A stretch of DNA of 64,000 nucleotides from NCBI GenBank assembly GCA_021904315.1, contig CM038916.1:1550001-1614000 (forward strand), written 5' to 3'. Under the pieces are notes generated by a model. That model made no database searches. It worked only from the letters and a program-made list of their open reading frames with translations, and was not told where the DNA came from. Position 1 is the first letter of the stretch. Every line of letters begins with the position of its first letter. Made by a program: the position numbers and the translations under genes. Origin of the DNA: Sphagnum magellanicum (Eukaryota; Streptophyta; Sphagnopsida; Sphagnales; Sphagnaceae). This document shows positions 3,703 through 60,650 of the stretch, piece after piece.

Positions 3703-4000
3703 GTTTAAACCTCTTGGTGGGCATATAATAACCCTATTGTGTTCTCTGCCACTAGGCCTGACTCGAGGTACTGCCAACAACTTGTTAATTGGGTCTGCTG
3801 TTGTGTTCCAAAATTCAAATAAAAACTTACTTAATCCACTTTCACTAACTTGAATGCCCTTAGACTGAGCAGAAAATAATTTTGCTATAATAATTTGTGA
3901 GAATGTCTTCCTAACAAGCTGAATATCACCATCATTTTGGCAAAAGAAATATGAACATTACCGTGGGTCAGCAACGAAGATCTTTCTTGGACCATCCCAA

Positions 4001-4365
4001 GGGTTCTCAGTATGTGACCCTGCACATTACAATTGCATAAAAGAAACGCCAAAAGATGCGGTTTGGCTGAGCAAAATGGTGTTGTTCCTGCACATATGCA
4101 GAGAGTCTCCTGAGTACGTGCGAGTGAAGAGTGTAAAGGCGCAGCAAAGCTATGCACCTGCCCATGGAGAGTGTAAAAAATAGGATTTCACTGTTGCTCC
4201 CTGTTTCTGATTGGCCAATCTAATGATTCGTCCAGGTGGTTTGCTATTTGCAGTCTCCCCCACCTATTCGCAATCCCAGTTTAGTGTTATGGGTGGGGTT
4301 GGACAAAACTAAATAACTAAACTTGGATGTGAGAAATATTTTTGCAGGGTCACATACTGAGCACC
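4001..4365. mobile_element. Tourist/PIF-Harbinger-like MITE, copy 1
   Basis: Begins TCTCAGTATGTGACCCTGCA and ends with the inverted match TGCAGGGTCACATACTGAGC. The interior matches copies 2 and 3, including TGATTGGCCAAT and the segment reading CCAGGTGGTTTGCTATT. It ends about 170 bp before the beta-amylase start codon, so it lies in that gene's promoter or 5' leader. The outer GAGCATCTCC end is degraded in this copy and no clean target duplication remains. Confidence 0.85.
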
Positions 4366-9290: not shown

Positions 9291-12200
9291 GTGGATGATT
9301 TGATGACTTTTGGACAGCGCATTGAAGAGATCAGTGCTTGAGATTTTGCTCAAAAGAAATCAGTTTCTGGCAAGGCTCTTGAAAAAGTAAGGATCCTGCA
9401 TTATGGCACCTGTGCAGCCTACCAGATCAGTACACTCTAATTGGAGGGGCATCAGCCACAAGGCTATAGCAAGCATCCCTACTTGAATGGTTCATCTCAT
9501 ATCAGCACATGTTGCTCACCTCTATGCTCTTGAGAGATCTGGGTAAGTGTATGTTCTGTCAATTGAGAAGACAATTTTATTCCAGCAGGTTTGGGGCACA
9601 GATGGTTTGGTTGGTGGGGTGGGGTGTGCACATATTGCCAATGACTGCACCACACATCTAAGTGAATGTGTTCACATGCATGTTCAGTATTGCCACACAA
9701 TTGCTGGATATTGGCAGAATAGTGTCTAGTTGACAGCTGTATGTGCCCATGGCTGCACGGTTTCTGGCTGGCCTTTTATATAACCTTGGTACTGGAGAAC
9801 TGTACTGTGGGCTCAATCCAGGACATTTGTGTGCCTGGTACCATTTGCGATGAGTATATCACCTAAAATTTCTGGTACCTAGTCATCTAAGCTTAGATAT
9901 AGCCTAAGGTTGCCTAAGGGCACTTACATGTGAATGGCTTGGTGTGATCATGTTTGTATGGCAAAATCACCTGGCAGGAGTATCCAACCATGGTGCAACA
10001 TTTTAGAATGACTATCACTTAGGTGAATATGGTTTCAGCAATGCGGGTTGCATGTGTGCTGTATGTGTTGGAATTTGGCTTGAGGTGATTTTCAAGTTTG
10101 GGTTTCATCTTGGTATCCAGTGTGATTATACAAATATGAAATTGCACTGATGCTTTTTCATTACAACTGATGGCAGATATGTTTTATTGACTGTGAATGT
10201 GTCAATGCAGGGCTGACTCAAAGACTTCTGGATAGATCTGAGTAATATTTGCCTTTTTGTATATGTACAAACAGCATTGGAGATGACTAGTCCTTTTTAT
10301 TCATGTGTGATGTAAGTAGTGCCTACTGTGATGGGAGCAAAGAGTGCACCACTCCAGTCCATTCCTTCTTCCCATGGCTTTGGGACTGGAATACTTTGGC
10401 TCAAGATCTTGTGTTGAGGAACTCTCAAGGGATATGTAATTGTGAATGGCGTCTTTCATTGTTACTCATCATGACCTTGCCCATGGAGGGAGGCGATGCT
10501 AAGAGTGGTAGTCTATGGTGGTGATGTTTCTTGATTGTGTGAAGGGACAAAAAGTAGTAGGACAATGGGTTTTGTCAGGTTTTTGTCATCTGTCGAAGAA
10601 CTCTCAAGTAACAGAAAATTCTATATCTGACAGCTACATAGTCCACAGCCTCTGGCCAGTGGCCATACACAGCTCACAATAGGAAGGCATTGATTTATGG
10701 AGAAAAGGGCCTCCAACACCACAATCTCCTTAGAGCAACAAACTTTAGAGCAAGAATGTGTAAATGAGCAACCACTGCACAGTACATTGAACAACAGTAG
10801 TCAGGTCAAAAAACCAGCAACACATGTCATGTTGGGACCCCACAAAGTGATTTACCACAATTTCCTTCAAGCAACAAACTTTGGAGCAAGACTCTGCAAA
10901 TGAGCAACCTCTTTGCAATACGTCCAACACATATAGAACATGCTATGTTGGGACCCCACAAACTGATTTATCAGAGAGCAAACCTAAGCTCTCCCTTGAG
11001 GGAACAAAGTATTTGCAGAACCAGCCGATAGGAGGCCTGTATAGGTAGGTATTCAGTAGCTATGCCTTCAACATCACCTCTAAAGCTACTGAATCCAGCT
11101 GACAAGTTGTTTGAGGACCTAGTGAATTTGGGTGTGAATGCAAAGTTTAAAGCTACAGGGATTGTGCATAGCCTTTTGAGTTCAAGTACAAGTAAGGCTG
11201 GCCCTTGATGTCCTAACAAATTCCTAGCAATCACCATGGTGAGTTAGGTGAATCTGAGCATGAGGGTTCTACCTGCTCTCAATGCCTTACCCTTCATAAT
11301 CATCAAATCTATGTGGTGAAGTCTCTGCTAAGGAACAAGTATGCTACCCTTATCATCTGTAGCAAAGGGAGGTCCATAAAAATATCTAAGGTCTTGATGG
11401 GATTGACCTGGAATATTCATATATTGTTTGGCAGCAAACTATCAACTGGTTTGTCCTTGACCATAAGGTCAAGCATGTCTTGTTTGACTATCTGTATAGC
11501 CATCTTGTATTCCACATCCTCACAATTTCTCCATCATGGATCTCTATTCCTTTGGATGAACATTTCAAAACACCCTAAAATAAAAATCAGTAGATGCGCG
11601 GGACGACAATGGCACTATTATACATGCAGTTTAACAGATGGGGTTTTGGCAAAAGCACTGGGCTTGACATGTTACATCAGACACCAATTTCTATGAGGTT
11701 GCATAGAAAACTTATCTATGAGCATGTAGGGACATTTCCACAACAATACTTTGAAGGTAGCACAACAATGAGTGCAATGATCCTTGTACAATCCCACCCT
11801 TGTATAATAAAGCATTGAAGCCTAACACATGAGAGGCCTCCATAGAGTATAATAGCTAGGATTCCTGCACCCAGTCACCACTGGTGACTGCTTGGATGCA
11901 CAACATCAACTAAAGCCATTGGACAATGTATCCTTGAGATTGCAAGGAACTTCCACAATAACACTTTGAAAGTAACCACTGTGCCATTCCAAAGAAACAA
12001 AATGAACCTGGAAAGAATGAGTACAGCCATAAATTTGTAAGTAATTCATCACAAAAATATTATACAATCCCCTTCATTTTGAATGACAGTTAGTAAAGGC
12101 CAATACTTCCCCTCTGACTGCATCAATTCCTGATGGTGGGTGTAGATAACTACATAAGAATCTAACCATATAACAAATATTCTCAAAATCTCAGAAAAAA

Positions 12201-12714
12201 ATTATAAAACAAACTGTGATCTGATTTTCTGCTAAATTTCCAGACTCAAGGAAGACTTGGTCATGATGTTGGCTAGCAAGAGATATAGCTAATAAATAAA
12301 GTCAATAATATCCTCATTCCAGCAGCAACAGGCAGCCAATAGCATACCCCACAACTCACTCACCTGCATCTGCTGCATAACATTAAAAAGGAGTCCTTAC
12401 ACATCAGTATGTTTACAAAACATGTTTTAGCCATGAGTAGAAATGAAACCCATTCAATTTTGCAATGCAACAGGTAATTTTGAAGCTTGACTAGATGGTG
12501 ATTACAATGCATCAATCAACACTTGCCTGTTGCAATAAGGCTACCTCAAATGACAAGAAATGGCTGAACTCTTGACATTTGGAATCTATGAGTGTGTCCC
12601 ATAAGAAATATGGATGAGACCAGAAAGGCCAAGAGGTTCCAAGGCAACCTTAGCAAACCCTGACTGACAAGACCTAACAAGTCTACAAGACTATGTCCAC
12701 AGGTCATTCACACT
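9291..12714. other. Intergenic region between BAM and the MDR gene
   Basis: This should hold the 3' UTR of the beta-amylase and of the converging reductase. I see no coding exons; the longest open frames are short and without recognisable motifs. The only structure noted is the tandem repeat at 10718-10985. Confidence 0.6.
10718..10985. repeat. Two-unit tandem repeat of about 120-136 bp
   Basis: The segment ACCACAAT(C/T)TCCTT...GCAACAAACTTT(A/G)GAGCAAGA occurs at about 10718 and 10853. GTTGGGACCCCACAAA(G/C)TGA occurs at about 10831 and 10948. Copies are about 80-85 percent alike by eye. Confidence 0.8.
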
Positions 12715-23258: not shown

Positions 23259-26200
23259 CTATGTCCATGAAAGTGGTACTTTAGTGCCCCCAGCATTGGA
23301 GAGTCCTGCCACAAGGCCTGCCATTGAAGCACTGGTATATGTTGCAGCTTCATTTTGTGCAGGGTTGTCACGGGCGTCAGTGTAAGTGTCATTCAGGAAA
23401 GGCCCCCCCACAACCCCTCCAACAGCCACATTGGGGTTGGGTGTGGTTGCATGGTACCAAACATAGCCACTGTCACAGGAGTAGACTGTTCCATCATTCG
23501 GTATCGACGCCCCTCGGTGGTGCAACATCTTTGGATAATTTGATCCATAGCCCACCAGAAAAATCTGATTCAATGGGTTTACACCCAACACATAATCCGC
23601 CTGCACCCACCCATTTTACTAAATATGGTTAGGCACGGATGTGTCTCACCTTGCAGTTAGCCCCTCAAGATATGTTAGTACAGTGGCACATTTATTGTTG
23701 TCTTTTGGTTGTATGGTGTGCATATGATGAGCTTGTGAGGATCACAATAAACATCAATTTCCACAACCAGAGGCACAAGACATCTGAGAGCTACAGGCAG
23801 AAAAACACAATCTGGAATGAATCATCTTTCAAGTGCGAAAAAAGCATCGGAAGTGCACACACCTGGATAGCAGCAAATGAGCGGATCTCTTGAGGGCTGA
23901 AAGTGTCCCCAGAACAGCTGATGGATGAGACCTTTGCTGTTGCCAAATAGTCACTATAGAATAGTGCTAGCAGCCCTGAGTTTACTCCAACTTGCAATCC
24001 ATCCCAGTCTTGGACCCAAATCAAGCCACCTGTGAAACAATCTTCATTGTCAAATGCGTGATCCACTTTCTCTCAAGTGCATTTCATTGCTCACTCAAAC
24101 CAAAATTCACCCATCGAATATTTGCAGAAGCAAAACTTACCTTGAATAAAAAACTACCAAGAAATGGATGGTGGAACACTCTGATACATCAAGAGGAATC
24201 AAACCAATTTGCATCTATCTTGTATGTATGAACTTCAGAGAGCTATGGTTGGACCACTTGAATGTCAAGTGCACAAATTATTCAGTCAAGCATGACCCTC
24301 AAACTTAAAATATTCCAATAGAAAAACAGTGAGTGTCCAATATGAATTGTGAAACTGACCCTTAATGCGTTCATTGAAGGCAGATGGTGACTGGGGAAGG
24401 AAATTGCACATGAGACCATCTGCAGTTGATTTATAGTTTTGCAGTCCACTCGTGACACCATTGTCTGTACTCTGTGGAGGCGACAGTAGTTGCAATCTGG
24501 CCAACAGCACCTGTTGCACACACCCAGTTTGTTAGAATCCATGTATACTATTACAGAATATCTAGATTAAGTGCACTCCACTGGTGCTCAGTATGTGACC
24601 CTGCAAATTAAAATTAGATGAATAAAAATCAAAACATGCTGGTTTGGCTTAGCAAAATGGTTTTGGCCCAGCATTTTTGCACAGTTTTCTGAGGGTAGTA
24701 AAAAGCACAACAAGCCTAACACCTGCCATAGAAGAGTGTAATAAATATGATCTGGTGTTGCTCCCTGTTTCCAATTGGCCAATCATAATGATTGGTCCAG
24801 GTGGTTTGCTATTAGTAGTCTCCCACCTATTTGCAGTCCCAAACTCCAGTTTTAGTTTCATGGGTAGGGTTGGAAAAAAAAAAAAAACTAGACTTGGATG
24901 TGAGAAATATTTTTTGCAGGTTCACATACTGAGCACTGCTGGAGATGCCCTAACACTACCATGCTGTTTCATTCACACTATACATATACAGGGGAAGCAG
25001 AACCCAAATGGTATGCAGGGAGTCGAACTGGCTTCCAGTATCTCCCAAAAGAATAACAATTCCAGACAGGAGTAAGGTGGTTTTCAGTCTTGGTTCTTTG
25101 TAGCAAAAACCCAAATGGTTTGGACAATGTTAGCTTGTGGCTGATTGCTTGCATAAAAACATAATATGCAAAACATGAGGAGAATCAGAAAGCCTTTTGG
25201 GTACTGTACTAACACTTCCTGCTACATGGATTTCTGAAGGCAATGTGCTCATCCAGCAAAACAGACATTTGCAAGGAAAAATTGATCCAAAAATTTCATT
25301 GTCAGATTCCTCAGATGTTGGGTCACACTAAGCTCTTGGATACATTCAACATCCAGGTGCTCAGATGACACTGCCCATGTGACCATCCTCAAAAATCATG
25401 GAAAGAATGCTGTCTTCATGTGACAGCAAGAAGATATGCAATCTTTTGACAAGTGCCATGACAGTAACAAAAGCTTCTGATCACACCAATGAAGATGCTA
25501 GCCAATCTTCAGCAAGAGAGATCATGTAAACCTAGAGAGGTTTTATGGTAAAGATGATGGTAGTCTTCAGCAAGAGAGCTCATGGGATCATTCTTTCACT
25601 GAGGAAACCCTAGAGAGGTCGATGGTAAAGATGATGGCTAGCCAGTCTTCAGCAAGAGAGAGATCAACACACATGGGGATCAAATTGTTTCATTGAGGAA
25701 TGCTAGAGAAGAAGTAAGTGATGGTAGGTATCACCACTGCAAGAAAAATGCCTAATTCAGAATGGCACCTATATAAAATGCAAAATAATTCAGAACGCAC
25801 CTGTACACCTGCGAGCTTGTCGTCCCAGCTGAACCAGGAAGGGTATTGTTGCCATTTGGCGAAAGCAGCACCATTTTCACTTGTCACATAATTCAAATAA
25901 GAAGAGTTTCCAGTCGCATAATACAACCATGAAGCACCCCACAGAAGCTCGTCTTCATATCCTGTGGAGTTGTAGAATGGTTGCACAAAGGGGTTTGTGA
26001 TACTGTAAGAAGCTCTGTATGTATCAGCAAACTGAAAGAGCTGCTTGGCATGTGTGAGTAGAGTGCTGGAATAAGCAGGATCCGTTGTTCGGAACACCAT
26101 AGCTGCTGCTGCCATTGCTGCTGCACTCTCTGCTGCCACTTCTGTTCCTGGATTTGTTGCATTGAGCTGATAAGACGGCCTTGGGATGTCATTGTTTTCT

Positions 26201-29442: not shown

Positions 29443-29821
29443 GAGCGTCTCCAGCGGTGCTCATTACGTGATCCTGCATACTACAAATAGATGAAGAAAA
29501 TCCAACATATGCCGGTTTGACTCAGGAAAATGATTTTGGCTCAGCATAATTGTGCATGTAGCCGTGGCTGGTAAAAGGCCTAGCAGCGCTTTGCACCTGC
29601 AAAAAAAAGAGTGTAATAAATATGATCTAACTGCTGCTCAGTGTTTCTGATTGTCCCATCATTATGATCGGTCCAGGTGGTTTGTTATTAGTAGTCCCCC
29701 CCACCTATTTGCTGTCCCAGTTTCAGTTTTATTGGTGGGGTTGCAAAAAAGTACATAACTAAACTTGGATGTGAAAAAATATTTTCTCAGGGTCACATAC
29801 TGAACACCGCTGGAGATGCTC
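29443..29821. mobile_element. Tourist/PIF-Harbinger-like MITE, copy 3 (best preserved ends)
   Basis: A 379-bp element flanked by TTA at 29440-29442 and 29822-29824. The ends are GAGCGTCTCCAGCGGTGCTC on the left and, read inward on the right, GAGCATCTCCAGCGGTGTTC. The terminal inverted repeat continues about 14 more bases. The interior is alignable with copies 1, 2 and 4. Confidence 0.93.
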
Positions 29822-29840
29822 TTAGGCTTTCAGTTGTTGA

Positions 29841-39200: not shown

Positions 39201-40391
39201 AGTTTTACCCTAGTAAGATTTAAAACAATTTAATGACGTTTCTTTCTCATACTTGTCAAGTTTAACAAAGTGTTCAAAGAAAATGTTCAAGTGGTTAAAA
39301 ACGTTTCGATCTTTTTCCTGGTCTATGTGACCTAGACCTTACCTCAGACCCAACAACCTAAACCATAAGATTTGACAGTCCACTTCTTGGGTGGGTCTTC
39401 ACCCCTAAAATTGCTGGACCGATTCTTTGGGCGAGTCTCTAACCCCTTGGAACCACTGAGGTGGTTCTTATGGTGTGTCTTGATCCACCTAAAATTGACA
39501 GGTCAAGTCTTATGACCAGGGCCAAAAAGAACCTGAACCTGGCCAAAAACCCACAACAGGCCAACACTGATACCTACTACCTAGCATTGTATTGTTAGTG
39601 GTATGAATCAATTTCACAAATATCCTACTGAGAGTTGTCCAAACTAATGCCCACTTTAGACGAGGGTTGAGGGTCCAATTTTCTAGGAACCAATTTGGAC
39701 TGATTTGAAGCAAATTGAATCCTTGAGTTAGATTGTACCTTGGTCCCTAGCCTGATTCTTGGTTCTCCAAAACAGGAGCTCTACTGTTTTTTGGGTCCGA
39801 ACCAATTGATTTTCCTTCCAAAACAGGTGCCATGTAGGTTTAGCCTGAATTTGCCATTTTTTGGTCTTGGGACCAATTGAATGCTTTCAACCAATAAGAT
39901 TTGCTTGAATTCATTAGTCCCTGGATGTTGGACCATTGTCTAAAGTTGCACTAAGTATTTTCTCATGGTCCAAAACAACCCTCAAGTAATAATTGTTTTT
40001 GCACAGAACATGATATTACCACACTTCCCTGAATGATGCTAATAACAATTTATCACCATTGTTAAACATTAATCGAAGAGGAGCTAAGGAGTGATTCACT
40101 AGAAGAAGACATTAGTATACCAATGGTGGTTGTTTGGGGATGTAGGGTTGTAACTTACCTCCTTCATGTGCTTTTGCTCTATGATCAAAGTTGGTGTCAG
40201 TTTGGATGGGGAGGTGGTAGGGGATGCAACCATGCAGGCACTACTGTCTTCTGGGAAACGCTCCCAAAAGCAAACATCGCAGTAAAACCTGCGCCTTACA
40301 GAACTCTCTGAGAATGAATCCAGCAGAAGGTTTTGTTTTGTTTCACAGCCTTACAGCTCTGTACTCAGTACTGGGCAGTGTTTCTTTCAAA

Positions 40392-40570
40392 GGAATTTTT
40401 GTTTGTAGCCAAAGTGGCAATCCTCCATAGGAAGATGCAGAAGAAATGGTGATCATCCCTAGGAAGATTTAGCCAAATCTGGCTAGAATCTAGAAATAAA
40501 GTACAAATCTTTAATTTTCCTCCAATATTTCTGGCTATAAAATGAAAACCAAATACCTGAATCTGGAAAT
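40392..40570 (+). repeat. Unclassified dispersed repeat, copy A
   Basis: Contains GATGATCATCC/GGTGATCATCCCTAGGAAG followed by GATTTAGCCAAATCTGGCTA, then ATTTCTGGCTATAAAATGAA. A related copy is at 40985-41240 in the same orientation, and another at 59780-59965 in reverse complement. Confidence 0.7.
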
Positions 40571-40984
40571 TTTAATATTTTTTTCCTTCACTTCTGATGA
40601 CTGAAAACCTCAAAATTCACTTTTATTTATTTATTTATTTATATTTTTAATTTCTCTTTTTGGCGATATTTCGCCAGTTTAAAAATGGCTGGTACTAGGT
40701 TAGTTTCTCCCCTAAGAAAGTCCAATAAAAGTTGCATTGCATGGAGGAATTTTTGTTGTCATGTTGTTGGTGACATGTGAGCCTGGTTGCTAGTGATGGC
40801 GTTGTCCTTGTGGGAGAGAGAACCTAAACATGGATCCGGATAATAAAAGAAAGTGAAAAAAATACATTTGGGGCATGTTGGTAGATCTTTTTGGCCCTCC
40901 GCGGGTCTCTTGCTTAATAGCATCAGACTTTATCCCATATCCTTAGGCCAACATTTACTCTTATAAATCAGCGTTTTCAAAAAG

Positions 40985-43432: not shown

Positions 43433-45555
43433 CTTTTTATGATATGGATGTTCCAAGTAACTGGGTAAAGCCTCAGCTGCAATGAAACTCAGATTCAGTA
43501 TGGGAGTAATTAACTTTCACACATGATGGCCTATACAACTCAATTAATCAACCCTCCCTGAAACAGCTCAAGAAAATGAAGAGTTTCCCTCACACTCACT
43601 TAGCAGATTGCTTCATCATGCCTTTGTAACAAGAGGTTCAGAGCCAAAAATTATCACCTCATGGCAAGCGAGCCACAAGCCCAACTTTGTCATGACAATT
43701 GTATGACTTGAAAATAAATCCTGTCAGAAAACCAACCAGATCCATGCTGCAATAATTATCTCAGGTCACAGAAGAAAAAAGAGTCTCCATTTGCTATTAT
43801 AATACACCACTGCAGTTTTTAACCAATGCTCTTTCAATCTGAAATAACAATAGAACACAACTAATAGAAATAGGGGTTTTTGTGCCAGTTCTAGTTTCGT
43901 GAAGGTCTTCTTAACTGATGCCAAAAACAAGTCTTTAGTCATCAAACCTGCCTTACCAAAAGATAACATATATGTTGAACAAGAATGCTGATCTCAATCA
44001 ACACTCAGGGATTATGACTGCACCTGGAATGAAGTGCAGAATAATGGATGGCCCGAACTAACTTGTCATTCTAAAAAGGGCATCCATGATTTCAGACAAC
44101 TGTACATCAGTTGCGCCTTCAATATGGTCCAGCCCGTGTTCAAAATTCTGGCAATCCCCAATTTTACATCAACAACCTGCTGAAGAAAAACAAAATTCTG
44201 GCATCTCCTCCAATTACCATTTCTATCAGTTTTTTCTTGAGGGTTCATTCTTGTACTTTGCATTTAAGACCATCTTCCTAATCATTCTGGCAGAAGAAGA
44301 AGAAGAAGATGGGCAGATGAACCTTTTGATTCAACCAAAGTAATTCCTTGTTGGCGTCCACCTTACCTTCAAGGTTGAATAAGAATACAGTCCATGGAAC
44401 AAACCAACACACTGTCTTTTCAACTGATAGGTTGTTTTGCCAAGCATGAACTGAACAAATCGTTGATGGTTCATTCCAATTATTGATCAATAGAGCATGC
44501 CCATGCAGTGAAGCAAATCTTCAAGTGAAGAAAGGACAGAAATGTCTTGTAATAACATCATCCCGTCAGTGAGGTATGAGAAACTCTTACTGGTAGTGAC
44601 CTCTTACAGTATGCTTCAACTGCTAGAAAGGCAGGGTGGCTTTCAAAAGCATCCAAAGCTTCTTTTGTTGAGAATTGGACAAGGTACGCATGAGTACAGC
44701 CTTCTTTCTCGTCAATCAACTTTCCTACACACAAACACACACGTACACAGAGGTTGCATATATATATATATATATACATACATATCTATGAGATTGCAGA
44801 CAAAATTCCCAAATCAATCAATCCTTTGAAGGCAATATGAGAATGTTGAGTGTGGTCATAAAACCTTATGAGAGAGTAGCTCACAAAGTGTCAGAGCTTC
44901 ATCACCTTCATCATAAATTGGCAGTGATAATGAGCTGCCATGACTACCCACTGACTTCATCAACTCCTCCTGACAGTGCTTGTTATTTGCTTGTCATGTG
45001 TTACAATGACGATAAGCAACCATCTCCAAACCGGAAAGATTGAAGATGCAGGGGTAAGGGGATGGATGGGGGGAGTGTGAAAGGGAAATCAAAAACTCAC
45101 CAACAGAAAGGGAGAGAATGGTATCAATGTGATACTTAAGAGACCAGATCACGTCAAGAAGCTCAGCCTCTTCTTCCTCCCTGACACCTTCCTTCAACTT
45201 CTTCATAACCACATGTTCGATCACATTACTGCAGCAAAGCAATTCCAACAAACAAAGAGGATCAAAACCCTCAACCCAACTTCAGGAACCACTGCCACCA
45301 CCCCATTGGTTCAAGCTCAACAGCAACAAACTCAGAGTGGGTTCTTTTGCCAATAGGTACTTAACAGAGCTTGCAACCTAGCCATAAACAAAACCCTAAA
45401 ACAACAACAAACCGTGTGTCCTAGAACTACCACGATGAGAACCAGCAATGGCATTCGCTCTCAAGACAAGACATGCATGAGGTATTATCTAAGACATAGA
45501 CAAACAGACAAAGCGAAGATGGAAGAAAAAAGGGTACGCACCATTCGGGATTCAT
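43433..45555 (-). CDS. Stress-response A/B barrel (Dabb) domain protein, UP3-like; model incomplete
   Basis: Dabb proteins are small dimeric alpha/beta barrels; the plant UP3 type has two tandem domains and unclear biochemistry. Supported minus-strand exons are 45555-45542 (MNPE plus a split codon), 45228-45101 (NVIEHVVMKKLKEG through ILSLSVG), 44724-44591 (KLIDEKEGCTHAYLVQF, then ALDAFESHPAF) and 43476-43433 (EALPSYLEHPYHKK). The exon 1-2-3 phases agree. A likely extra exon, 44147-44063, reads GLDHIEGATDVQLSEIMDAL, the helix of a second domain; a short one near 44437-44393 is possible. The 3' end is unresolved; a frame ending GIIEVSIADGE and a stop at 43271 is a candidate. The gene is divergent from the ASCH gene. 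The missing segments could also mean a damaged gene. Confidence 0.72.
44758..44800. repeat. (TA)n microsatellite in a Dabb-gene intron
   Basis: GCA(TA)n tract just upstream of Dabb exon 3. Its read-through explains the Tyr/Ile-rich start of the minus-strand frame there. Confidence 0.85.
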
Positions 45556-45692
45556 CTTGCACGAAAGAAGAAAGAAGATTGTGGCGCTGCAAAGACAAGA
45601 GAATATACAAGGCAACCCTAATGATATACATGAACAAATGTGAGAGTTTTGAGTGAAATCGAGGTTTGGTCGAGCTGCGTAGTGAAGGATCA
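45556..45692. promoter_or_regulatory. Compact bidirectional promoter between the Dabb and ASCH genes
   Basis: The inferred Dabb start codon (45555, minus) and the ASCH start codon (45693, plus) are 137 bp apart, so both promoters and 5' leaders must share this interval or the genes overlap at their 5' ends. I see no clear TATA box on either strand. Confidence 0.6.
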
Positions 45693-48600
45693 ATGGAGAA
45701 CGAAGCTGTCGCAACAAAACCGTTGTCTTTGGGAGGAGGAGGAACAGCAGGAGCAGGAAGAGGAGGAGGAGATGATCCGGAATCTCCTGTCCGTAGCATA
45801 CCTGCTGTGGATCCGCTCTCATGCATCACCTCGCTTCTTGCTTCAGTGTTGTCATCGCGCACCCAGGTTTCTGCACTTCCTTCTTCCTTCTGTGCGACGC
45901 TCTTGGATGCTGCTGTTGACGATTCCGGAGAGGAGGATCATCAGAGGATTGAAGAAGGCGTGCCTGGACATCCCTTGTATGCACACCTGGCCACAGCCTT
46001 ATACCAGTGGATCCAAAGCGGCGAGTTTCCTCGCAGCTTGCCTCCCATGCCTGGCATACATGAGGACGACTCCTGGAAGACCCACATGGGAGAATGGTCT
46101 GCAATTGTCACTAGCTTTGGCTCAGAGATGATTCAGGTAACAAAAGAATTTCTTCCAGCTGTGCAAGGAAACTAGATTGTCTGGAATTGTTTGCTTAGTT
46201 GTTTGTTTGTAGATCACAGGAACAATAGCTCCGATTTGGCTCCTGTTGTTGTTCTTGTTTGAGACTTCTGTCGAGAGATGGAGAATAGATCTGAAGTTGA
46301 ATGCTTTTGAGAAGCTCTGGGAGGGTTTAGGATTTGATGGCAGTAGGCATGGAAGACTTTCAGTCTATTTCAGTCTATGGAATCAGAGATGGCATACTGA
46401 TGTTGTTAGGGAAGGCTGGTTGTGTAGCAGTTGTGGAGCAAGGTGACTATGCAGCTCCATGTGCAAGAGCCTTATGCCAGTCTCCTGAAAGGTGATTTGA
46501 TTTCTTTCTCTCTGTTTCATTGCACAATCTGGTGTATGTATCTGGTGTCTCCAACAATCTTAAACCCTAAACTGAAACCATCTGTATCAATTATGGTGAT
46601 GATGACAGAAGGTCGTTGTAGATCCTGGAAGAACACATGTCTTGCTGATGTGTCTGGAGATTTTGAGGGTTTCGTTATGCATTTGTTTGTTTTGACAGAT
46701 GGATCAAAAACAGTTGAAGGGCGTTGTGCAACAGATGGATACAGGAGGTAAGAGTGTTTGGCTCCATGAGCAGCTCCAGTCAGAATGGTTTTTTTGAGTG
46801 TCGGAAGAGTGTCAGTCATTTGATTACAGGTCTCTGCAAGCCCACGTTGGTCCCAAATGAAAACTACTGTACTATTCCTGTTCCCTTTGAGGAAATTGAT
46901 CACTTCCATGTTGTGAAGATCACCATTGTTTGATTTTGATAATCAGTTGGGACAGTGTTTCATGCTGCAAAGTTCATCTCATGTATGGTGTGAAGTAAGA
47001 GAATGTCATTGGGTTTTTAGAGTGTATTTGCAGTTTAAGATTGATTTGGTGCCACACTGATTCTCCATCATATAATCTCAAGGCAGCTGTGTTATTACAT
47101 GAGTTCAGGTGGGTTTCGTTTGGTTGGCAGTCTGGTCAGTGGAGACATAATCTTGGTCAATGAGGAATTTCTGCTTCAAGTTGAGGTACCTCTGGATATT
47201 AAGTTTGGTAGTGAGCCTGGAAGGCAGGAGCCAATAGGTTGAACATCCAAGTTTCATCTCACCATATAAATCATGAATCAATGCAGATTTCAGAAGGCAA
47301 ACTTGTCTTGGTCACACATGATTGTTTCATGTTCAGGAGACAAAAGATACAAGCCTGACAACATAACCCCTAGGAAGAGATTTATCTTGTTGATGTAGCA
47401 ATGCTCTATTAATCCTTGGCCCTGTCCTTCCCATGAAAATTGGATTCATCCACTCACCTTGTGAGGGCAGAGTTGGAACTGATGGTTAAAAGTGTGCTTA
47501 CAGGGAACAGATTGGTACCCAACATTTCATGACATGCTGGAGACTGAAGGGCTTGCAAAAGCTCTCCCTGGAGTTGAGTCCATGACTGAAGGTAGAATCG
47601 ATTCCTTTATGTCTTTCTGCCCTCCATACAGTGAAGCCTTATGGTGACTAAGAAAAAGACTAACTTTAGTTTTGAAGGTGATCATGTGCTTAATTTTCTT
47701 TCTGCGTTGCAGGTGTTAAAGTATACCGGCAATTTTACACTGTGCAGAAAGAACAAGCAAAGGGGGTGCTAGGCATTCATGTATCACGACCAAATGGTGT
47801 AAAGGAACCACCTGAGCTGCTATCTAGCATCCTTAATGTGAGTCATGTCCTTCTCTACTGTTTTGCCTTAGAAGTGAAGAGAGATTCTTTTGACCAACTC
47901 TGAAGTGCATCCTTCAGTGCTGTATCAAAGGCAACATTAGGCTTCTGTAGTGGCTAATCTTGTTTGTCATAACAATTGCAGAGTCTTGGAGTTGAAGGTG
48001 TGAGGGCCTTGTTGGGCATGCGAAGTACTGTGGGGACTATCAAGGATTCACTACCACCCCCTAAGTCAGCACTCATGTCTTCATTCTCTATGTTGAATAA
48101 CCCAAATGTGAGTTATGGATATGGACCAGATCTGAGAGTTGTTTCAGTGTTGAACTGAGAATGAACTTTGCTGCTTGAGACTCTGAATGCTGGTCAGTAG
48201 CAGTTGTCTCGATGCTGATACATCAGTTGAAAACAACAATGCTATAAAGGAGGACACTTTGGGGCTGCATAATTGAACACAGACAGAGAGTTCCTGATTG
48301 TTTCTGGGAAGGGGGGAAGGGCCGGGTGATCTTTATGTCAGTAACAATAGGTTTCTTGTTTGGGATCAGCTGTGAAATCTTCTCTGTTTGTCTTGATGTT
48401 ACTTATGATTCATTGTGCAAATTGGGAGAATTGGAGGTGGCAGGCAGTCATATAACTGTTGGAGCTCGAGCGCTTGCAAAGCATGTACCTCGCAGCAGCA
48501 AGGGCTGGTGGGGGTCATTCTCAGGCACTGGTACATCTGTTTGCTTCTGCATTGTTCCTGCGTAAGGAAAGCAAATTTAAAGTGAATGAGTGCGTGCACA

Positions 48601-49376
48601 GATCTAGCTTGTAGTTGGTGCACAGTAATATAGTGATGTGGTCGCTAGCAGATTGATATGGTTTATTGCCTCTGGAGGTAGTTTCGTGGTATTGAGACAC
48701 CATTGCTGCAGTTGTAAGGTATATTCCCTGCAGCATTTGTCAGCTTGGTATTTGGGGAGCATTGTCCTGTATCAAGAGGTAGTGTGTTTAGATGAGGGAT
48801 GGTGTGGAGTGGGGCCAGAATCAGAGAAGAATGAACTTGCAAAGAGCACGCTTAAGCGCCTCATGAAGCATGCTATTTGGATGAACATCCACCTGGCTCC
48901 TTTCCCCACTTTTGAAATACGTGTCAGTGATGGATATGGTGCCCGCTGGGTTGCTGATGGGAGTCAGGTACCATTTGTTCTTTTATCTGCCTTGTCCTGA
49001 TCCTTGTCAATCTCCACCTAGAACTGGTAGTAGATTTTAGACTGTGGGACATGGTAGCCTACACCTAAGATGTAAAGTTCTGCATGATTCTAAAGTTGTT
49101 GCAGAGTTTTTGCTCATGATGTTACTTCTGCTGCAGTTATATGACATAGATTGAGGGAACTTCTATAATTCGATGGTATTTGCTTTGAGGAAGTTACAGG
49201 AATCTATAAATGATCTATGGTTCGAAGAATGTTGTCCATGATATTTTGTTCTGCTAAAGAATAGTTTGGTGAATAAGACATGTCATAACAGAGAAGCTGT
49301 GCTGGGCTGGTTGCAGTTTCAAGGCTTTTTGGAGCCTCCAATGGATGATGGATATCTGAAAAAGTGGAGGCACTGA
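45693..49376 (+). CDS. ASCH-domain protein of plant type
   Basis: ASCH domains are PUA-like folds thought to bind RNA; the plant proteins are poorly characterised. Ten exons are inferred: 45693-46136, 46443-46491, 46699-46747, 47131-47185, 47504-47591, 47713-47837, 47982-48107, 48437-48530, 48819-48967 and 49317-49376 (412 aa). All phases close with GT-AG introns. Residues 1-148 are a Gly/Ser-rich then helical N-terminal part (GHPLYAHLATALYQWI). The ASCH core begins at about 150 with LHVQEPYASLLKDGSKTVEGR, split over two exons, then SGDIILVNEEF. The C-terminal extension (VGARALAKH, FEIRVSDGYGARWVADG, GFLEPPMDDG) is characteristic of the plant group. ATG 45693 is the first in-frame Met. Exon 8's acceptor was chosen for phase and homology and is the weakest call. 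Confidence 0.85.
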
Positions 49377-50640
49377 ACTTCTCAACTCTCAAGAATAAAT
49401 AAATTGTTCCGAGTCTGCTGTACTGATCACTGCTGGAAATATCTGTTAAAAAAAGTGTGTTGGTTGAGATTGCTGTTCTTCATAACATTGCAACTTTTTT
49501 GAAATGTACCTTTCATGCACTTTAAAAACAAAGTTGCTATGTAGCTGCCTTGCTCATGTGTTATAAAACCTGCCAACCAGAGGATACCGTGTTAAACATC
49601 AATTCTACTAGGACAGTACAACCGTACAACAATGTTTTCAGGTGAACTGGATGCATCAAAGTTGCAAACTTAATTCAATACTAGTTGGAGCTGGTGTGAC
49701 CCAAGAGCCATTTCCCCTACATATACATGGCATAGGCACTGCATCTGTCTCCTCCAAAATGGGCTGAAGTTGGAAAAACACTATTTTGCATCTGTAGAAC
49801 AACAGCCACAAGTCTTCTAGCTACTCTTCTATATTTTCTGTAATGCAGTTTTTCTTGCTTGTATCTTCACATGAAATTGGGGTAGAGGAAACACAAAACA
49901 TACACACTCTCTCAAGACTCTTGCAAGAAGCAAATAGAAAGATGAGACAGCAATGGGTTTCCCCCCCCTAAAACTCACTTATTACAACCTGGAATAGTTT
50001 GCTTCAAGGTGCACATTACATACTGGAATAAGTCACTTTGATTCACCCATTATGAACCGAATGCTGACTTTCACCTACCCACCCACCTACCCACCATTTA
50101 TTATGCCTGTTCCATGTAACTCTTAGCTGTCAATATTGGACATATTCTGAATAATGCAAATAATAAGTGCGTGGGGTGAATTTGTTGGTGGAGGGAAACT
50201 TGTTAAGTACCCTAACCTATCCCCTCCCCCCCCCCTTTCAAAACCTTTTTTTCTTTTCTTTAACAACTGTAGTACTGTATAACTCTTTTAAATGGTTAGG
50301 TTGGGACTTGGGGAACGGGGAGTTTGGAGTTTTAAAAATCTGTTTTGGACCAATTTGAAAACCCATTCTTTGAAATATGAAGACTGTAAAATTCTGTGCA
50401 ATAACTATTTTCCATGGAAAAACTGGGAGAAGAGAGGAAATCTAAAATTGAAAAAAAATTATTATACACATAGCTTTTGTTTGTAGCATTCCCACTTTTT
50501 CTAGAAGCCTAAAAAATGTCTCAACAAAACTTGTTGTTTATTACTGTGGGTTTTACAACTAAAATAAGCATTTGGCAACAATAATAGTTTATATGTACAT
50601 TGTGTATATATATGCCTTGTCCTTCTCACCTAACTCCACA
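49377..50640. other. 3' flank of ASCH gene and intergenic DNA
   Basis: No gene recognised. It contains a C-run near 50222-50237. Confidence 0.55.
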
Positions 50641-50915
50641 GGTGCTCAGTATGTGACTCTGTAAATTAAAAATTAGATGAAGTAAAGTTAAAACATGCTG
50701 GTTTTAGATCAGCAGAATGGTTTTGGCCCAACATTTTTGTACAGTTTTGCTGAGGCAGGTAAAAGGCACATCAAAGCTTAACACTTGCTATTGATTGGCT
50801 AGGTACATTGATTGGTCCATGTGGGTTCCTACTAGGTAGGAGGTAGTCTCCGACCTATTTGCAATCCCAGTTTTAGTTTCATGGGTGGGGTTGGAAACAA
50901 GTAAATAACTAGTCT
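50641..50915. mobile_element. Tourist/PIF-Harbinger-like MITE, copy 4, truncated
   Basis: Starts GGTGCTCAGTATGTGACTCT and follows copy 2 through AAACATGCTGGTTT, TTTTGGCCCAACATTTTTG and TTTCATGGGTGGGGTTGGAA. It then breaks off near AAATAACTAG; the right inverted repeat is missing. It lies about 0.6 kb upstream of the Rab1 start codon. Confidence 0.85.
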
Positions 50916-51529
50916 ATTTGGAAACAAAATAAAATAATTTAGAACTAGGTACTGTAGGTAGGTACCCTCCCTCTGCCCTCATGGGAATGGAGTTGACTCT
51001 CTTGTATGGTTTAAATTAGCTTGCAAGTAGGGAAGTACGTATGTATTTATGTATGTAGCTAGTGGGGTTTGAACTCATAACTAGGTAGAATGAGTAGGTA
51101 GGTGCCTATGTTTGTACCTATTTCTTAGGGTTTGGTCCCACTTCGCTTTCTTTCCTACCTGCCTGCCCAGCCATTTTCCCCAGCGGCTTAGTGTTTTTTC
51201 ATAGCGCGAAACGACGTTGCGTTGCAAACCCTCGCTTCTTTGCTCCATCGCCTCGTCCTGTTGGTTTTTTTTCCCCTCTTCTTCTTCTGTTGTTCTTCCG
51301 CTGGTCTATTTCCCCGTATTTCGTCTCTCTGTGCTCTTGTCCACCATTTTTTTTTCTTTCTGTTTTTGGTGTGCCGTTCAAGAAAGATTGTTTGAACGAG
51401 GATCCGGCGGAGGAGAAGAGGAGAGGGGAGGTTCCGTGCTGTGGCCTTAGATCGGGGTCCTCTGTGAGTGGTGAGAAGCCCCGAGGAAGCGATCTCGTCT
51501 GTGGCGGCCTTCTTTCTTCTTCGTGCAAG

Positions 51530-54500
51530 ATGAATCCTGAATAGTGAGCACTCTTTTTTCTATCTGTTTCTGTCTGTCTTTGTGTTTTTGTTTTGTGTCC
51601 TATTTGCGAGACTTCACTTCTACGGTGGTTCAAGTTCCGGGGAGGTGGAATTTCCGTGGTTGCGGGAGGTGGCCATGGCATTCCATGTCATTACGGATGA
51701 ATTTGATTCGCACTTGCCTTTCCTTTTTCTGCAAGGAACTCAGTCAGGGCTTTCTGGGAGGCTTCCACGTTTCATGATTTAATTTGGGACTTCTCATAGC
51801 AGGGGATTGTTCCATATCTTGGAACATTTGAGACGGGAAACATTTGAACATCTGCATGGTGTGACTTTCCTTATGTGCTCTTTCTCTTAGCAAATGAAAT
51901 TTGTTTGTGCCTTCTTTCTGGTTTCTCTGGAACATTGTAGATTGGGCAAAGTGCGCAAGAATTTATGTGCACTTGGGATCCTTTCTAGAAGCTGTTGTCA
52001 TTGCCCTGTCTCCTTGGCTTTGTCTTCATCTGCTATAGCCAGATCTTTCCTAGGTCAAAGCACCATGTATTCTGGGCATAGGTGTACTGAGGTTTCTTTG
52101 TCCAATTTAGAGGATTCAGTCACAGATCTTCCACTTGCAAAGTCCTTCACCATACAGAAGGTGCTGGTGGACTTTTGATCATAAGCTATCTCTTTGTAAA
52201 TGATGAGTTGTAGGGACCTATCTTAGGGGCAGCACTAACAAAAGTGCAACATGTGAAAAAGCAATTGTTGTGAAGCTGAATGAACTCCCATTCTGAAATT
52301 TGGAATACAGTGGTCATCATGTAGCTTTATCTGTCATCCTATTTTATATGGTCATTAGCTTCATTGGATGGCCTTTTCAGGTTTATGTTGTACATTGAAT
52401 CCATTTGCATTTGCTAGATGGTCAGAAATGGTAGGAAGCTATCTAGCATATCTGCTAATGCTCCAAGTCAAACATGCTGACTCAGGACATGTGTGAAGTG
52501 TCGTGGTTTGTATTTGGCTTCTTTTGCTTGTGGTCTTGTCATTAGGGTAATCCTTTTGGGATTTTTTTCTAGGGTGCCATCTGAATGCCAGCCAATACTT
52601 GATCAGGGTCTTCCCAGTGATTGCAGAAGTGGAACATGAATTGAGGATGCAGATTTCTGTATAATTGTTTGCCCTAAGTTTTGAGCAGAAGAGTGTATAC
52701 TTATTATCTACATCCAGTGTTTGGAGGTGATGGGAGTAATTGATTGTTTGGTACTTTGTGAATGATACTCACAAGGATATTGATCATACTCTTTTTGTGT
52801 TTTCTGGTTTGACCAGAAAATGGTACAAGATTTGTTTTGTTACCTTATGTGATGTTTTTGTGGCTTTTTTCTCTCCAATGTTTGAGGGTCAGTGGATCTG
52901 CAGAGCATGTTCTCAGAGTCTGATCAATGCTTTATCACTTGGTTGTTTATGCAGTGATTATCTTTTCAAGCTGTTGTTGATTGGAGATTCGGGTGTTGGG
53001 AAGTCTTGCCTTCTTCTGCGGTTTGCAGTAAGATATATCCATTGTTCTTCAGAGTTTAATCATGCTTGTAGCAGGGCGTTTGCTGTTGCTTTCAAAAAAA
53101 TCATATGGTCTCTTACTGATGACCTTAGCTCATTTAGATTGTGGATTGTCCAACGAGTTATCCAGGATGGATTAGCATTTAGTCCTTTAAATACTGGAAT
53201 TATGTATTCAGTCTATCAGATGTAAAAGTCTTTAGTCAGTGTTCTAGCCTGCAGTCTGCTCCTAATTTAGTGTTTTAATGCAGGATGATTCTTACTTGGA
53301 GAGCTACATCAGCACAATTGGGGTTGACTTTGTAAGTACCTTTAGCTGCACCCCTATGTGTCAATATACAATTGTATTTCCACCAACCTAGTTTACTCCT
53401 ACAAATTTTGCCTATTATGGTAAGATCAGTCCTTTACGGTTGAATTGTGGCATTGCTATGGACATTCCTTACAAATCAGATGAACCCTCAATGCAACACA
53501 TTGTTGTCACAAACTCAAACCAAGCTGAGTTGTTGAACGTCTTGGAAGCCTCAAGTTTTCTTTTGGCTTTTATTTGGACAGAAAATCCGGACTGTCGAGC
53601 TGGATGGGAAGACAATCAAGTTGCAAATTGTGAGTGTTCCCATTTTTCTTATGTTCTGGACCATACTACCTGGTACTGCATTTGGCAGATTACATTGACA
53701 TGACTTGTTTCCTGTAAGTGATACATAAAGTGATTATGGTATCATCACTGTGTAGCTATGTCTCTTGAGTGCTAGCCAACATTATGACTGAGTCTTCCAG
53801 ATGCTTCCTGAAACGTGTCCGAAACTCAGGACATAGATTTTTGTACAATGATTTGCTGAAAAGCTTGGGTGGATTATTATATATACTTATCTACACCCAG
53901 CACTGGGAGCCTGATGAAGGCAGTGGGTAGTCATGGCAGTTCATCACTACTGTTCTTGATGAAGGTGATGGTCTGACACTTTGTGAGCATCTCTCATAAG
54001 GTTATGACCACACTCATCATCATGTTAGCTTCAAAATGTCAATGTGAAGATTTCTCTGCAGTGCCATATATATGATAGTTCTGTAGACACTGTTGGTGTC
54101 TGATTGCAATTCCTCCATATAACTGTGTGAAGGGCTCAGGAAGGTTGCCAATTATGGAAGGTATGATGAAAGAATCTTTCACAATGGTGTTTGCAGTGGG
54201 ACACAGCAGGGCAGGAGCGATTCAGAACAATCACCAGCAGCTACTACCGTGGTGCTCATGGAATCATTGTATGTGTGATTCCTTATATGTTTATCCCCTT
54301 GTGAAGATAGTGTTCACGAGTATGTAGGTGGGTATGTCAGTGTTGGTTCAATTGTTGAAATCACTGAAAACAATATGAGCACCCTAACTCTGTTCTTGCC
54401 ACCTGATCACATAAACTGCAGCTATAGCTTTCCTGTCTTATGCTGGATGTGATTTGTCTTATATTTGTTCTCTCAAAGTTCATGCAGATGTACTGAATGC

Positions 54501-55330
54501 TAGCATCATTTAGGCCAATGATATGTGCTCACCACTGAATTTTATTACACTGTTGCAGGTGGTCTATGATGTCACAGACCAGGAGAGTTTCAACAATGTG
54601 AAGCAATGGCTGAATGAGATTGACCGATATGCTAGTGAGAATGTGAACAAGTTGCTTGTGGGCAACAAGTCTGACCTGGCCTCCAAAAAGGTTGTTGACT
54701 ACCAGACTGCTAAGGTAAGGTTTATTGTGGATGCATGATTCCCAAGAAAGAATCATTTACTGTTGTCTTGTGTTGGGGTTCCTCTTTTCTGTGCTTGCTG
54801 TTTGGTTGCTCTTGTGTAGTCAGATCTGAAATATCCATAACCTTATTTTTGGGTATGCTCTTGATTCTTGTCACGAGAACATTCAAGTTCAAAAGGATTG
54901 ACAGAAATTTTAGTACTTACAAAGGTATATGTATATTGTCTGATGAACACAAGATATTGATTTGCAAGTCTTAATCAATGTTATTTTGCATTATGAATTT
55001 CAGGCTTTTGCTGATGAGATAGGCATCCCATTCTTGGAGACCAGTGCCAAAAATGCTACTAATGTAGAGCAGGCTTTCATGACCATGGCTGCAGAAATTA
55101 AGAACAGGTATTCTTTCCATTTCTTGTTTTATGTGTCAATGACTCTTCAATATATGTCGCATACATCTAACAACTTGTCTCCAGATTAGTTTGTTTTAAT
55201 GAGTGTTAAGGATATTTTTGCATTTTCCTGCAGGATGGCAAGTCAGCCTGCAATGACTAGTAGCAAGCCTAACACTGTCCAGATGAAAGCTGGACAGCCC
55301 ATTTCTCAGAAGAGTGGATGCTGCTCGTAG
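51530..55330 (+). CDS. RABD (Rab1-like): Rab1/RABD-family small GTPase
   Basis: Controls ER-to-Golgi vesicle traffic. Eight exons are 51530-51543, 52955-53027, 53284-53331, 53582-53629, 54197-54268, 54559-54714, 55004-55107 and 55234-55330. They total 612 bp, or 203 aa, the usual family length. All introns are GT-AG and phases close. The first coding exon is only 14 bp (MNPE plus TA of Tyr5), followed by a 1.4-kb intron. Diagnostic motifs are GDSGVGKS (15-22), ISTIGVDF (38-45), WDTAGQE (62-68), NKSD (121-124) and ETSAK (149-153). The C terminus is Cys-Cys-Ser, a double-cysteine geranylgeranylation site. All catalytic and nucleotide-binding residues are intact. No competing start upstream is in frame. 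Confidence 0.98.
52572..52800 (+). repeat. Repeat in Rab1 intron 1 shared with intron 4
   Basis: Aligns by eye with 53772-54026: GCCAGCCAATACT / GCTAGCCAACATT, TACTTAT(TAT)CTACA(T/C)CCAG, and ACTTTGTGA(A/G) followed by CTCACAAGG / CTCATAAGG and CATACTC / CACACTC. Divergence is high. Confidence 0.65.
53772..54026 (+). repeat. Repeat in Rab1 intron 4 shared with intron 1
   Basis: Partner of 52572-52800, same orientation, on either side of exons 2-4. It may be an old internal duplication or two insertions of one dispersed element. Confidence 0.65.
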
Positions 55331-58300: not shown

Positions 58301-60650
58301 AAATTTTGAAAAAAATATTAGTATTACACCAATTGCACAGTTTGTTAACAGTAAGAAATTTCCATTTCTCAACTAAATTCCAATTAGTTTTTACCAAAGG
58401 ATTCAGCTTCAGTTGCCTACACACGCCTGAGACTAATTTTCAAAATAGATGGATATATGACATTTCTGTTGGGCAGTTGGGTGGCTGCACTTCCCTCCAT
58501 GCACTTGGGACAGTTTTCCTCTTATGACATTTAAGGATTAACTTTCATTCAATTTGATTGCTTGCAAAAGCACTCCCTAAACACCATCCCCAATCTAAAC
58601 TAGACTAAATTTTGTTCACAGCTGGAGTTGGGCGGTCAGTGCAAACCATGAACGATGGATGGTAAGTGGCCACGAAACAATTTTCTGTTGAGTTCCAGTT
58701 CCCTAGCTAACCATGGTGGTTAGCTTAGTTGCTTTTGTAAAAATAGCCCTTACCTATGCATAAACTATCTACTTACCTAGTAGTCACCTATTTTCCTACC
58801 TTTCTACATATATCTGGTTCCAGGTCTGATTCTTGAAAAATAAAAGTTCGGAATTCAGTTCAGGTTCCAATTCTAAAAATCAGACCTATTTCTGGTTTGG
58901 TTTTCGGTAACGTAGACAAAAACTGATGATTAATTGCTGGTTAACCTCTGATTATCACTTATGACATAGTTCTAATCCTTTTTTCAAAAATCCTGGTTTC
59001 AATTCTTAAAAACCAGGAACCTGATTCTGGTTTGGGATTTACTAACCAGAGAACCTGAACTGATAGTTCTCACCCTCCAAACTGGGTACTCACCCCAATT
59101 CTGGGTTCAGGTTCTCCAAACTTCGAACAGGTTCTAAATCAAGTCTGGTTTGGAAATTGGAGTCGTGTGTGTGTGTTCCACTGTCACAACACACGCTGCC
59201 CAAGATTGGAGATTCTGTAGATATCAACAATTGTACAATTTTTGACTAGTTGATTAAAAAGTATAGTTTTCTTGTGACCTTTTCTCAAAAGAAGTACTAC
59301 ATTGGATGAGTAGAAAACCAAAACTTGCAGGAAAGGAAAGAGACTGCAGCAACAAGCCTTTTGTTCTTATTTCAGCAACAGGTTGGTTGATTTCACAGTT
59401 CAGTTTACAATGCTCAGCTTAGATGTAAAATCTACAGTCAAGTTCTCGGAGCTGAAACAACAATAGCTCAAGTAGTTGGTAGCTTAATTAATGTCTCTGC
59501 ATTAGCATAGGGCTTTTTGGTCATGTGAACTCTATCTTGATTTTGCAAGAGAACTGATTGTTATCTTGCAAAATCGAGAATCATGGTTCCACCCAAAAGA
59601 TCCTTCCAAACCTGCAACAGTTCAAATAAGAAATGCTCATGAAAATGTGGGACCAAATGCACTTTCCATAAATCCCTTTTTTCTTATTGGCTAATTTTTT
59701 TTCAAAAAATGAAATTGAAAATTCGAACATGAAGTGGTTTTGAAGGTTTACAATTGCCGGAACTTAGAATGGGGGGAACAAAATAGTAGAAACCATCATA
59801 ATTTCTCTATTTGGTTTTCAGTCTGTAGCCAGAAATATAGAAGGATGATAAAGATTTGTACTTCATATCTGATTCTTACCCAGATTCGACTAAATCTTCC
59901 TAGGGATGATCATCACTTTTGGACATTTTCCTATGGATGATTGGAACTTCGGCTAACAACAAAAGTTCCTTAACAAGGGGTGTGGCATACTGTGGCCTTG
60001 CCATTTACATTAAAAAGTATCTTAAGGCAAAAGAAGAATTATGAAAACTCAAATATTTCATCTTGCCTGCAAAAATATAATGTTGAAAAAAATCCTCTAA
60101 AAGAAACCAAAATCCTTCAAGATATTATAAATCTATAACTAATCTCAAGTTACAAGAGAAGTCGAAATATCAATCTTTCAAAAATCCTCCTATCAAAATA
60201 GACCTATTAAACTAGGGGCCAAAATCCCTTCAGCTACTATACTCTATAATGAATCTAAACACAATATCCTTAAGGGCCTTGGGAGTAGGCAAGGCCAAAA
60301 AAACCACTGCTCCACACTGCACAGTCTCTCCCTTCTGAGAGAGGGACAGAGCCAATAAATGTGGGCACAAAATCCGGAACCTACGAACAATCGTTTATAG
60401 TTGATAGGTACCTACCAAGCATCTATCTGCTCATCAATGCAGCTCTGTCCGTATGTGTCTTCGAAGCAACACTATTATCTTGAGAAAGATCATCCCAATG
60501 TCTTCATCCATACATCTATACATCCACACATACACTCATCCACTATTTTTCAGCTGCCAAGATCATCCTTAATTTATAACCCATCATCTCTCTGTTCATG
60601 GATGACTAAAGCAGTGTACTGATTGTCTGAATTTCACAATGGACAGAGTT
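55331..60650. other. Intergenic region between Rab1 and the lectin gene
   Basis: It begins with the Rab1 3' UTR. No exon chain was recognised; the short frames lack motifs. Within it are a (CA)n at about 56478-56491, GGTTC(C/T)-rich DNA at 58810-59160 and a reverse-complement copy of the unclassified repeat at 59780-59965. Confidence 0.55.
59780..59965 (-). repeat. Unclassified dispersed repeat, copy C (reverse complement)
   Basis: The reverse complement matches copy A at 40392-40570 by eye: GATGATCATCCCTAGGAAG, then GATTTAGTCGAATCTG, AAGTACAAATCTTTA, and ATTTCTGGCTACAGACTGAA versus ATTTCTGGCTATAAAATGAA. Confidence 0.7.

Follow-up and report, generated by a model that had tools for sequence, protein, structure and literature searches.

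Does the Dabb gene in this part of the Sphagnum magellanicum genome begin with an exon that was taken from a Rab1 gene some 6 kb away? The window, meaning the whole 64,000-nucleotide stretch that was analyzed (positions 1,550,001 to 1,614,000 of contig CM038916.1, assembly GCA_021904315.1), contains a homologous exon in two otherwise unrelated genes, one encoding a Ras-family GTPase and the other a Dabb protein, which is a small stress protein. Its genes and introns are those expected of nuclear DNA from a land plant. All coordinates below are those of the window. The Dabb gene was modeled on the minus strand with the following parts:

45542..45555, minus strand: proposed coding start exon of the Dabb gene (MNPE plus 2 bases), with a GTGCGT donor at 45541 and an in-phase splice to 45228
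45101..45228, minus strand: Dabb exon 2, with acceptor GCTTTGCTGCAG, donor GTGAGT, and a match to Pfam PF07876
44558..44724, minus strand: Dabb exon 3 as modeled, with acceptor GTTTGTGTGTAG and ending with an in-frame TGA (44560-44558)

Exons 2 and 3 together scored 58.5 bits against PF07876 (cut-off, 25), covering positions 1-87 of the 96-position profile; exon 2 with its read-through alone scored 26.5 bits, and this value rose to 58.5 when exon 3 was joined. Judged by sequence, the Dabb exons are genuine. The last exon is uncertain, with a TGA soon after the candidate donor (CTACCA/GTAAGA), and a further 3′ exon following that donor is possible. A candidate extra exon at 43477-43433 (minus strand), reading AEALPSYLEHPYHKK, showed a Dabb-like motif by eye and splice-like flanks; it gave no Pfam Dabb match and was rejected.

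The beginning of the Dabb gene lies outside these exons. Exon 2 starts at the N-terminal edge of the Dabb domain, no in-frame ATG is present in the 18 open codons just upstream of it, and the first internal methionine is residue 8 (NVIEHVVM), which falls within the Pfam match. As modeled, the gene needs an upstream start. Joining the proposed start exon to 45228 yields MNPECNVIEH. Since this exon adds nothing to the Pfam score (58.5 bits with it; 58.7 bits without), the profile cannot choose among first exons. The Dabb model matched 13 PDB sequences (best E, 0.00029), and these matches begin at chain residue 5 to 10; with a start exon of five residues, the Dabb protein would therefore have a normal length. 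On the query side, they begin at residue 7 to 9, past MNPE.

The proposed start exon is part of a tract that recurs, in inverted orientation, at the start of the Rab1 gene:

45482..45577, minus strand: copied tract in the Dabb gene, defined by alignment to 51509-51603, with a sharp 5′ edge
45577-45556, minus strand: leader of the copied tract, part of the Dabb-side tract
about 60 bases of intron 1, minus strand: intron part of the copied tract, its 3′ limit uncertain and its presence firm for about 20 intron bases
51509..51603, plus strand: putative source of the copy, spanning the Rab1 leader, coding start exon, and intron start, from the alignment
51530..55330, plus strand: intact Rab1 gene with eight coding exons, encoding a 203-aa protein (MNPEYDYLF...SGCCS)

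Between 45577-45542 (minus strand) and 51509-51543 (plus strand), 33 of 35 aligned bases are identical, with one 1-base indel. The leader and exon together measure 36 bases on the Dabb side and 35 bases on the Rab1 side, the indel lying within a T run and substitutions amounting to 2/35. Aligned locally, the two 5′ regions reached a best score of 83, compared with a mean of 25 and a maximum of 36 in 300 dinucleotide shuffles, and the tract pair reached an E value of 4.7e-13 (72.9 bits) when the window was compared with itself. An earlier note on this DNA had quoted the two start sequences and reported one indel and about two mismatches between them; the sequences read as quoted, with the core starting at 45577 (minus strand) rather than 45582 and at 51509 (plus strand) rather than 51510, and the alignment agrees with the count. 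The same note had placed the donor GT after 14 coding bases in both genes, in phase 2. The exons (45555-45542 and 51530-51543) and donors (from 45541 and 51544) are consistent with this, and the phase 2 joins work in both genes, giving MNPEC-NVIEH and MNPEY-DYLF. A phase-compatible junction would be expected by chance in about one-third of cases. U1 pairing is also similar for the two start-exon donors (Dabb, -4.3; Rab1, -4.6), within a range of -1.1 to -10.0 for the seven Rab1 donors.

Within the window, the tract is confined to these two places. A 26-base core, made degenerate at both differing sites and allowing up to 3 mismatches, occurred at 2 places in the window and at none in 100 shuffles, and a 30-base pattern spanning the indel found the Dabb copy alone. 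Searches of the window for a third copy were negative: scored by alignment, the runner-up place reached just 27, and at E values of up to 1 only short weak matches were obtained, the best with 29.7 bits vs 72.9 bits for the pair. A 24-base tract pattern had 0 matches in viral and prokaryotic sequence collections, which, given the scope of those collections, is little informative.

The similarity continues beyond the splice donors, as the weaker intronic similarity described previously had indicated, with in-register identities of 15/18, 27/40, and 38/60 over the intron starts. The first 20 intron bases were more alike than shuffles (p = 0.002). After the six donor bases, 11 of the next 14 intron bases are identical between the genes; among 6944 GT sites on both strands of the window, just 2 resembled the Dabb intron this closely (11/14), necessarily the Dabb donor itself and its Rab1 counterpart. 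Beyond base 18, the tests disagree: intron bases 18-60 agreed in register at 23 of 42 positions (p = 0.0055 vs T-rich window controls), whereas gapped local scores for bases 18-50 and 18-80 were not significant (p = 0.068 and 0.126, respectively). In-register identity fell to chance level over bases 60-100 (p = 0.44), and the remaining parts of the two first introns were unalike (best local score, 15; null mean, 16; null maximum, 24). The upstream edge is sharp, with 4/20 bases agreeing in register, and the gapped test upstream of the core gave p values of 0.07 and 0.19 over 25 and 40 bases, respectively. A looser gapped alignment runs further upstream, but it was not significant against shuffles, and this extension of the tract was rejected. 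At the 5′ edge itself, 1/5 bases agree in register, with no clear microhomology, and the 3′ edge is too diverged to define. The evidence on the flanks consists of the register and shuffle tests; a MAFFT alignment of longer flanks was set aside. By these measures, the tract is at least about 55 bp long and probably extends to about 95 bp. The presence of intron sequence inside the copy means that the template was DNA or unspliced RNA, not mature mRNA.

The Rab1 gene is the likely donor. Rab1 is ancient and widespread, and the Rab1 product in the window showed full-length similarity to Rab-1A, its best PDB match (E, 1.7e-106, from residue 1), with both the MNPEYDYLF N terminus and the C-terminal cysteines in place. 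MNPEYDYLF was identical in the three PDB Rab-1 chains shown as alignments. Because this motif makes the start exon native to Rab1, and because the PDB matches to the Dabb model begin only after the MNPE residues, the copying likely ran from Rab1 to Dabb.

The spacer in which the copy lies is narrow and is bounded by a third gene, which sits between Dabb and Rab1:

45693..46136, plus strand: first coding exon of the neighbor gene, recognized by eye (open frame, 45657-46175; donor-like CAG/GTAACA)
45602..45607, minus strand: TATA-like TATATT, 25-30 bases upstream of where the copied tract starts

The ATG of the neighbor gene (45693) lies head-to-head with the proposed Dabb ATG, 137 bp apart. No Pfam match was found in its first exon (MENEAVATKPLSL...); the gene was placed at 45693-49376, its later exons, assigned by eye, running to about 49.4 kb. 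A second TATA-like element, TATAT, occurs from 45628. The usual spacing from a TATA element to the transcription start, measured from TATATT at 45607-45602, would put the start near the 5′ edge of the tract, making the copied leader the beginning of the Dabb mRNA.

Taken as a whole, the locus is probably best explained by a segment of about 95 bp, comprising a leader, a start exon, and a splice donor, having been copied from Rab1 and recruited as the first exon of Dabb. In this scenario, the segment would have carried the pyrimidine-rich leader, the 14-base ATG exon, the 5′ splice site, and the first part of intron 1; with DNA or unspliced RNA as template, it would have been copied in inverted orientation about 6 kb away, landing in the narrow spacer between the Dabb gene and its head-to-head neighbor, where it may have been retained as the Dabb leader and start exon. 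We infer that the likely mechanism was break-repair synthesis on an ectopic template, which is in keeping with a short, sharp-edged copy lying in inverted orientation 6 kb from its source. The exon would supply the start codon, initiation context, and donor in the Dabb mRNA, while the local TATA-like element would drive transcription. The model predicts that the Dabb mRNA contains this exon, and the Rab1 and Dabb mRNAs may share 5′ leader signals.

The pattern of change along the tract bears on whether the copy is used. Differences between the two copies amounted to 2/35 in the leader and coding part vs 22/60 in the intron (Fisher p = 0.0006), or vs 13/40 when 40 intron bases were counted (p = 0.004), a contrast that comes from one sequence pair, presumes that the tract reaches 40-60 bases into the intron, and was computed for several extents chosen once the alignment had been inspected. 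When the first 18 intron bases were counted, it was not significant (3/18 vs 2/35; p = 0.32). If homology extends along the entire tract, selection would have held the exonic part, as expected for a used exon and not for a relic. This contrast is the best evidence here for function.

A relic is nevertheless the alternative to be weighed most carefully, although we consider it unlikely. The copy would then be a short templated Rab1 insertion lying in the spacer, not or only rarely spliced in, and Dabb would start elsewhere. Other starts can indeed be drawn. A list of ATG-to-phase-2-donor combinations, compiled from 46600 down to near exon 2 with coding lengths of up to 400, contained 59 candidate starts including the MNPEC exon, which ranked tenth by U1 pairing (eight combinations pair better, and one with equal pairing is listed ahead). 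Among the eight, one starts from the MNPEC ATG and another reads through the MNPEC ATG (donor at 45431). An alternative start exon at 45385-45378 would give MASNVIEH, and its U1 pairing (-4.0) nearly equals that of the proposed donor. The lack of significance of the exon/intron contrast over 18 intron bases is also compatible with a relic. The greater conservation of the exonic part when 40-60 intron bases are counted, as well as the intact donor and phase of the copy, speaks against it, and the alternative starts have no independent support here. What sets the MNPEC exon apart among the 59 candidates is, as far as its sequence tells, homology to a working start exon. The earlier note had proposed a start exon that was copied, inverted, and recruited. 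Its inverted copy, placed in phase at the Dabb start, holds up and gains from the exonic conservation under the longer intron counts, whereas its recruitment into the mRNA is the less secure part in the face of so many candidate starts, some with better pairing.

Recruitment of a single exon by Dabb could also be one instance of something broader, in which the 95-bp unit (leader, initiation context, ATG exon, and donor) acts as a portable "start cassette" that is selected in both genes, giving Rab1 and Dabb shared translational or splicing control by way of their nearly identical leaders, and that further genes of this genome may carry. We regard this extension as speculative and rather improbable.

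The window also contains other repeats, one of which lies within introns of the same two genes:

44825..44962, minus strand: probable dispersed repeat in Dabb intron 2, matching 53912-54035 in Rab1 intron 4

The two stretches are 80% identical over 138 columns and are inverted relative to each other, like the start-exon pair. The Rab1 intron 4 repeat is similar to 12017-12291 as well (64% over 282 columns, a match that spans most of what Dabb and Rab1 have in common here), and the stretch adjoining it, 53766-53909, resembles 52582-52726. Stretches of this probable repeat are 53753-54035, 44825-44962, 12017-12291, and 52582-52726, and repeated TGATGAAG and CTGA motifs occur where it is best conserved. 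When the Dabb and Rab1 copies were searched against Rfam at a permissive threshold, 9/9 matches were below the gathering scores, and a small-RNA identity was rejected, no family being above the cut-off. Because the Rab1 stretch also resembles 12017-12291 and dispersed repeats are common in the window, the match between the Dabb and Rab1 introns is probably a dispersed repeat, apart from the start-exon copy, a reading that rests on one 64% match covering the shared part. A different dispersed repeat of about 370 bp is present in four copies (3997-4364, 24576-24951, 29449-29822, and 50633-50915) with about 67-86% identity, the copy at 50633-50915 being in pieces and a few hundred bases upstream of the Rab1 gene. 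An inverted pair at 40390-40595 and 59766-59971 (about 205 bp; 78% identity) lies 19 kb apart.

The arrangement of some of these matches could be read as what is left of an inverted duplication that spanned more of the Rab1 region, of which the leader, exon 1, and a piece of intron would survive on the Dabb side. Three inverted pairs are collinear (45491-45577/51509-51594, 44825-44962/53912-54035, and 40390-40595/59766-59971). This reading is very improbable: the Rab1 intron stretch is probably a dispersed repeat, as its likeness to 12017-12291 indicates, the rest of intron 1 is unalike (best score, 15 vs null mean, 16), and the supposed Rab1 remnants flank coding exon 2 of Dabb. Just as hard to credit is the idea that the tract belongs to a mobile or gene-capturing repeat with many copies and carries the Rab1 start exon by coincidence: the window does contain several dispersed repeat families (copies of about 63-86% identity) but just two copies of the tract, and there is little room for a carrier element between the first exon of the neighbor gene and Dabb exon 2.

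Recruitment of the Rab1 start exon, if the Dabb transcript uses it, would be a very small and clear case of a gene adopting another gene's beginning, a known way for genes to gain new beginnings, here at a very small scale. The moved unit would consist of a leader, a start codon, and a splice donor, with no targeting peptide and no sign of a copied promoter. A start exon with almost no coding content could then move between genes, and the neighboring gene pair would allow direct testing of the effect of the shared leader on translation.

In the literature searched, covering titles and the starts of abstracts, no Rab1/Dabb start-exon case was found. In Populus, rpl32 took the transit peptide of a duplicated SOD1 copy, an example of 5′-exon shuffling in a plant nuclear genome, a route that is established in plants for targeting peptides (PMC8018952). 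As in that case, the 5′ exon of one gene would have been duplicated and joined to another gene; unlike the rpl32 targeting peptide, the Dabb unit comprises a leader, a start codon with four residues, and a donor, in inverted orientation and from 6 kb away. For Arabidopsis AT2G29290, upstream open reading frames were proposed to have arisen from 5′-end duplication and exon shuffling (PMC6041940). The likeness lies in a short, intron-bordered 5′-end duplicate with a start codon, whereas the AT2G29290 duplicate lies upstream in the same gene and makes upstream open reading frames (PMC6041940), and the Dabb copy would start an unrelated protein. Repaired double-strand breaks in Arabidopsis contain templated insertions, some of them reverse-complementary (PMC5217109), and the Dabb copy resembles these in being a short, reverse-complementary copied stretch. 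The Arabidopsis insertions have a median length of a few bases, and many of them have a match within 100 bp (PMC5217109), in contrast to about 95 bp from 6 kb here; the Rab1/Dabb copy may nonetheless be linked to templated insertion during break repair. Exon and UTR shuffling through tandem duplication has been described in Drosophila yakuba, where duplications likewise join parts of different genes and often alter expression (PMC5460883). Those duplications are tandem and polymorphic, with many thought to be very young (PMC5460883), whereas the Rab1/Dabb copy is inverted, short, and diverged. The Rab1/Dabb case belongs with these examples of exon shuffling and 5′-exon recruitment, its special points being the minimal unit and the unrelated recipient.
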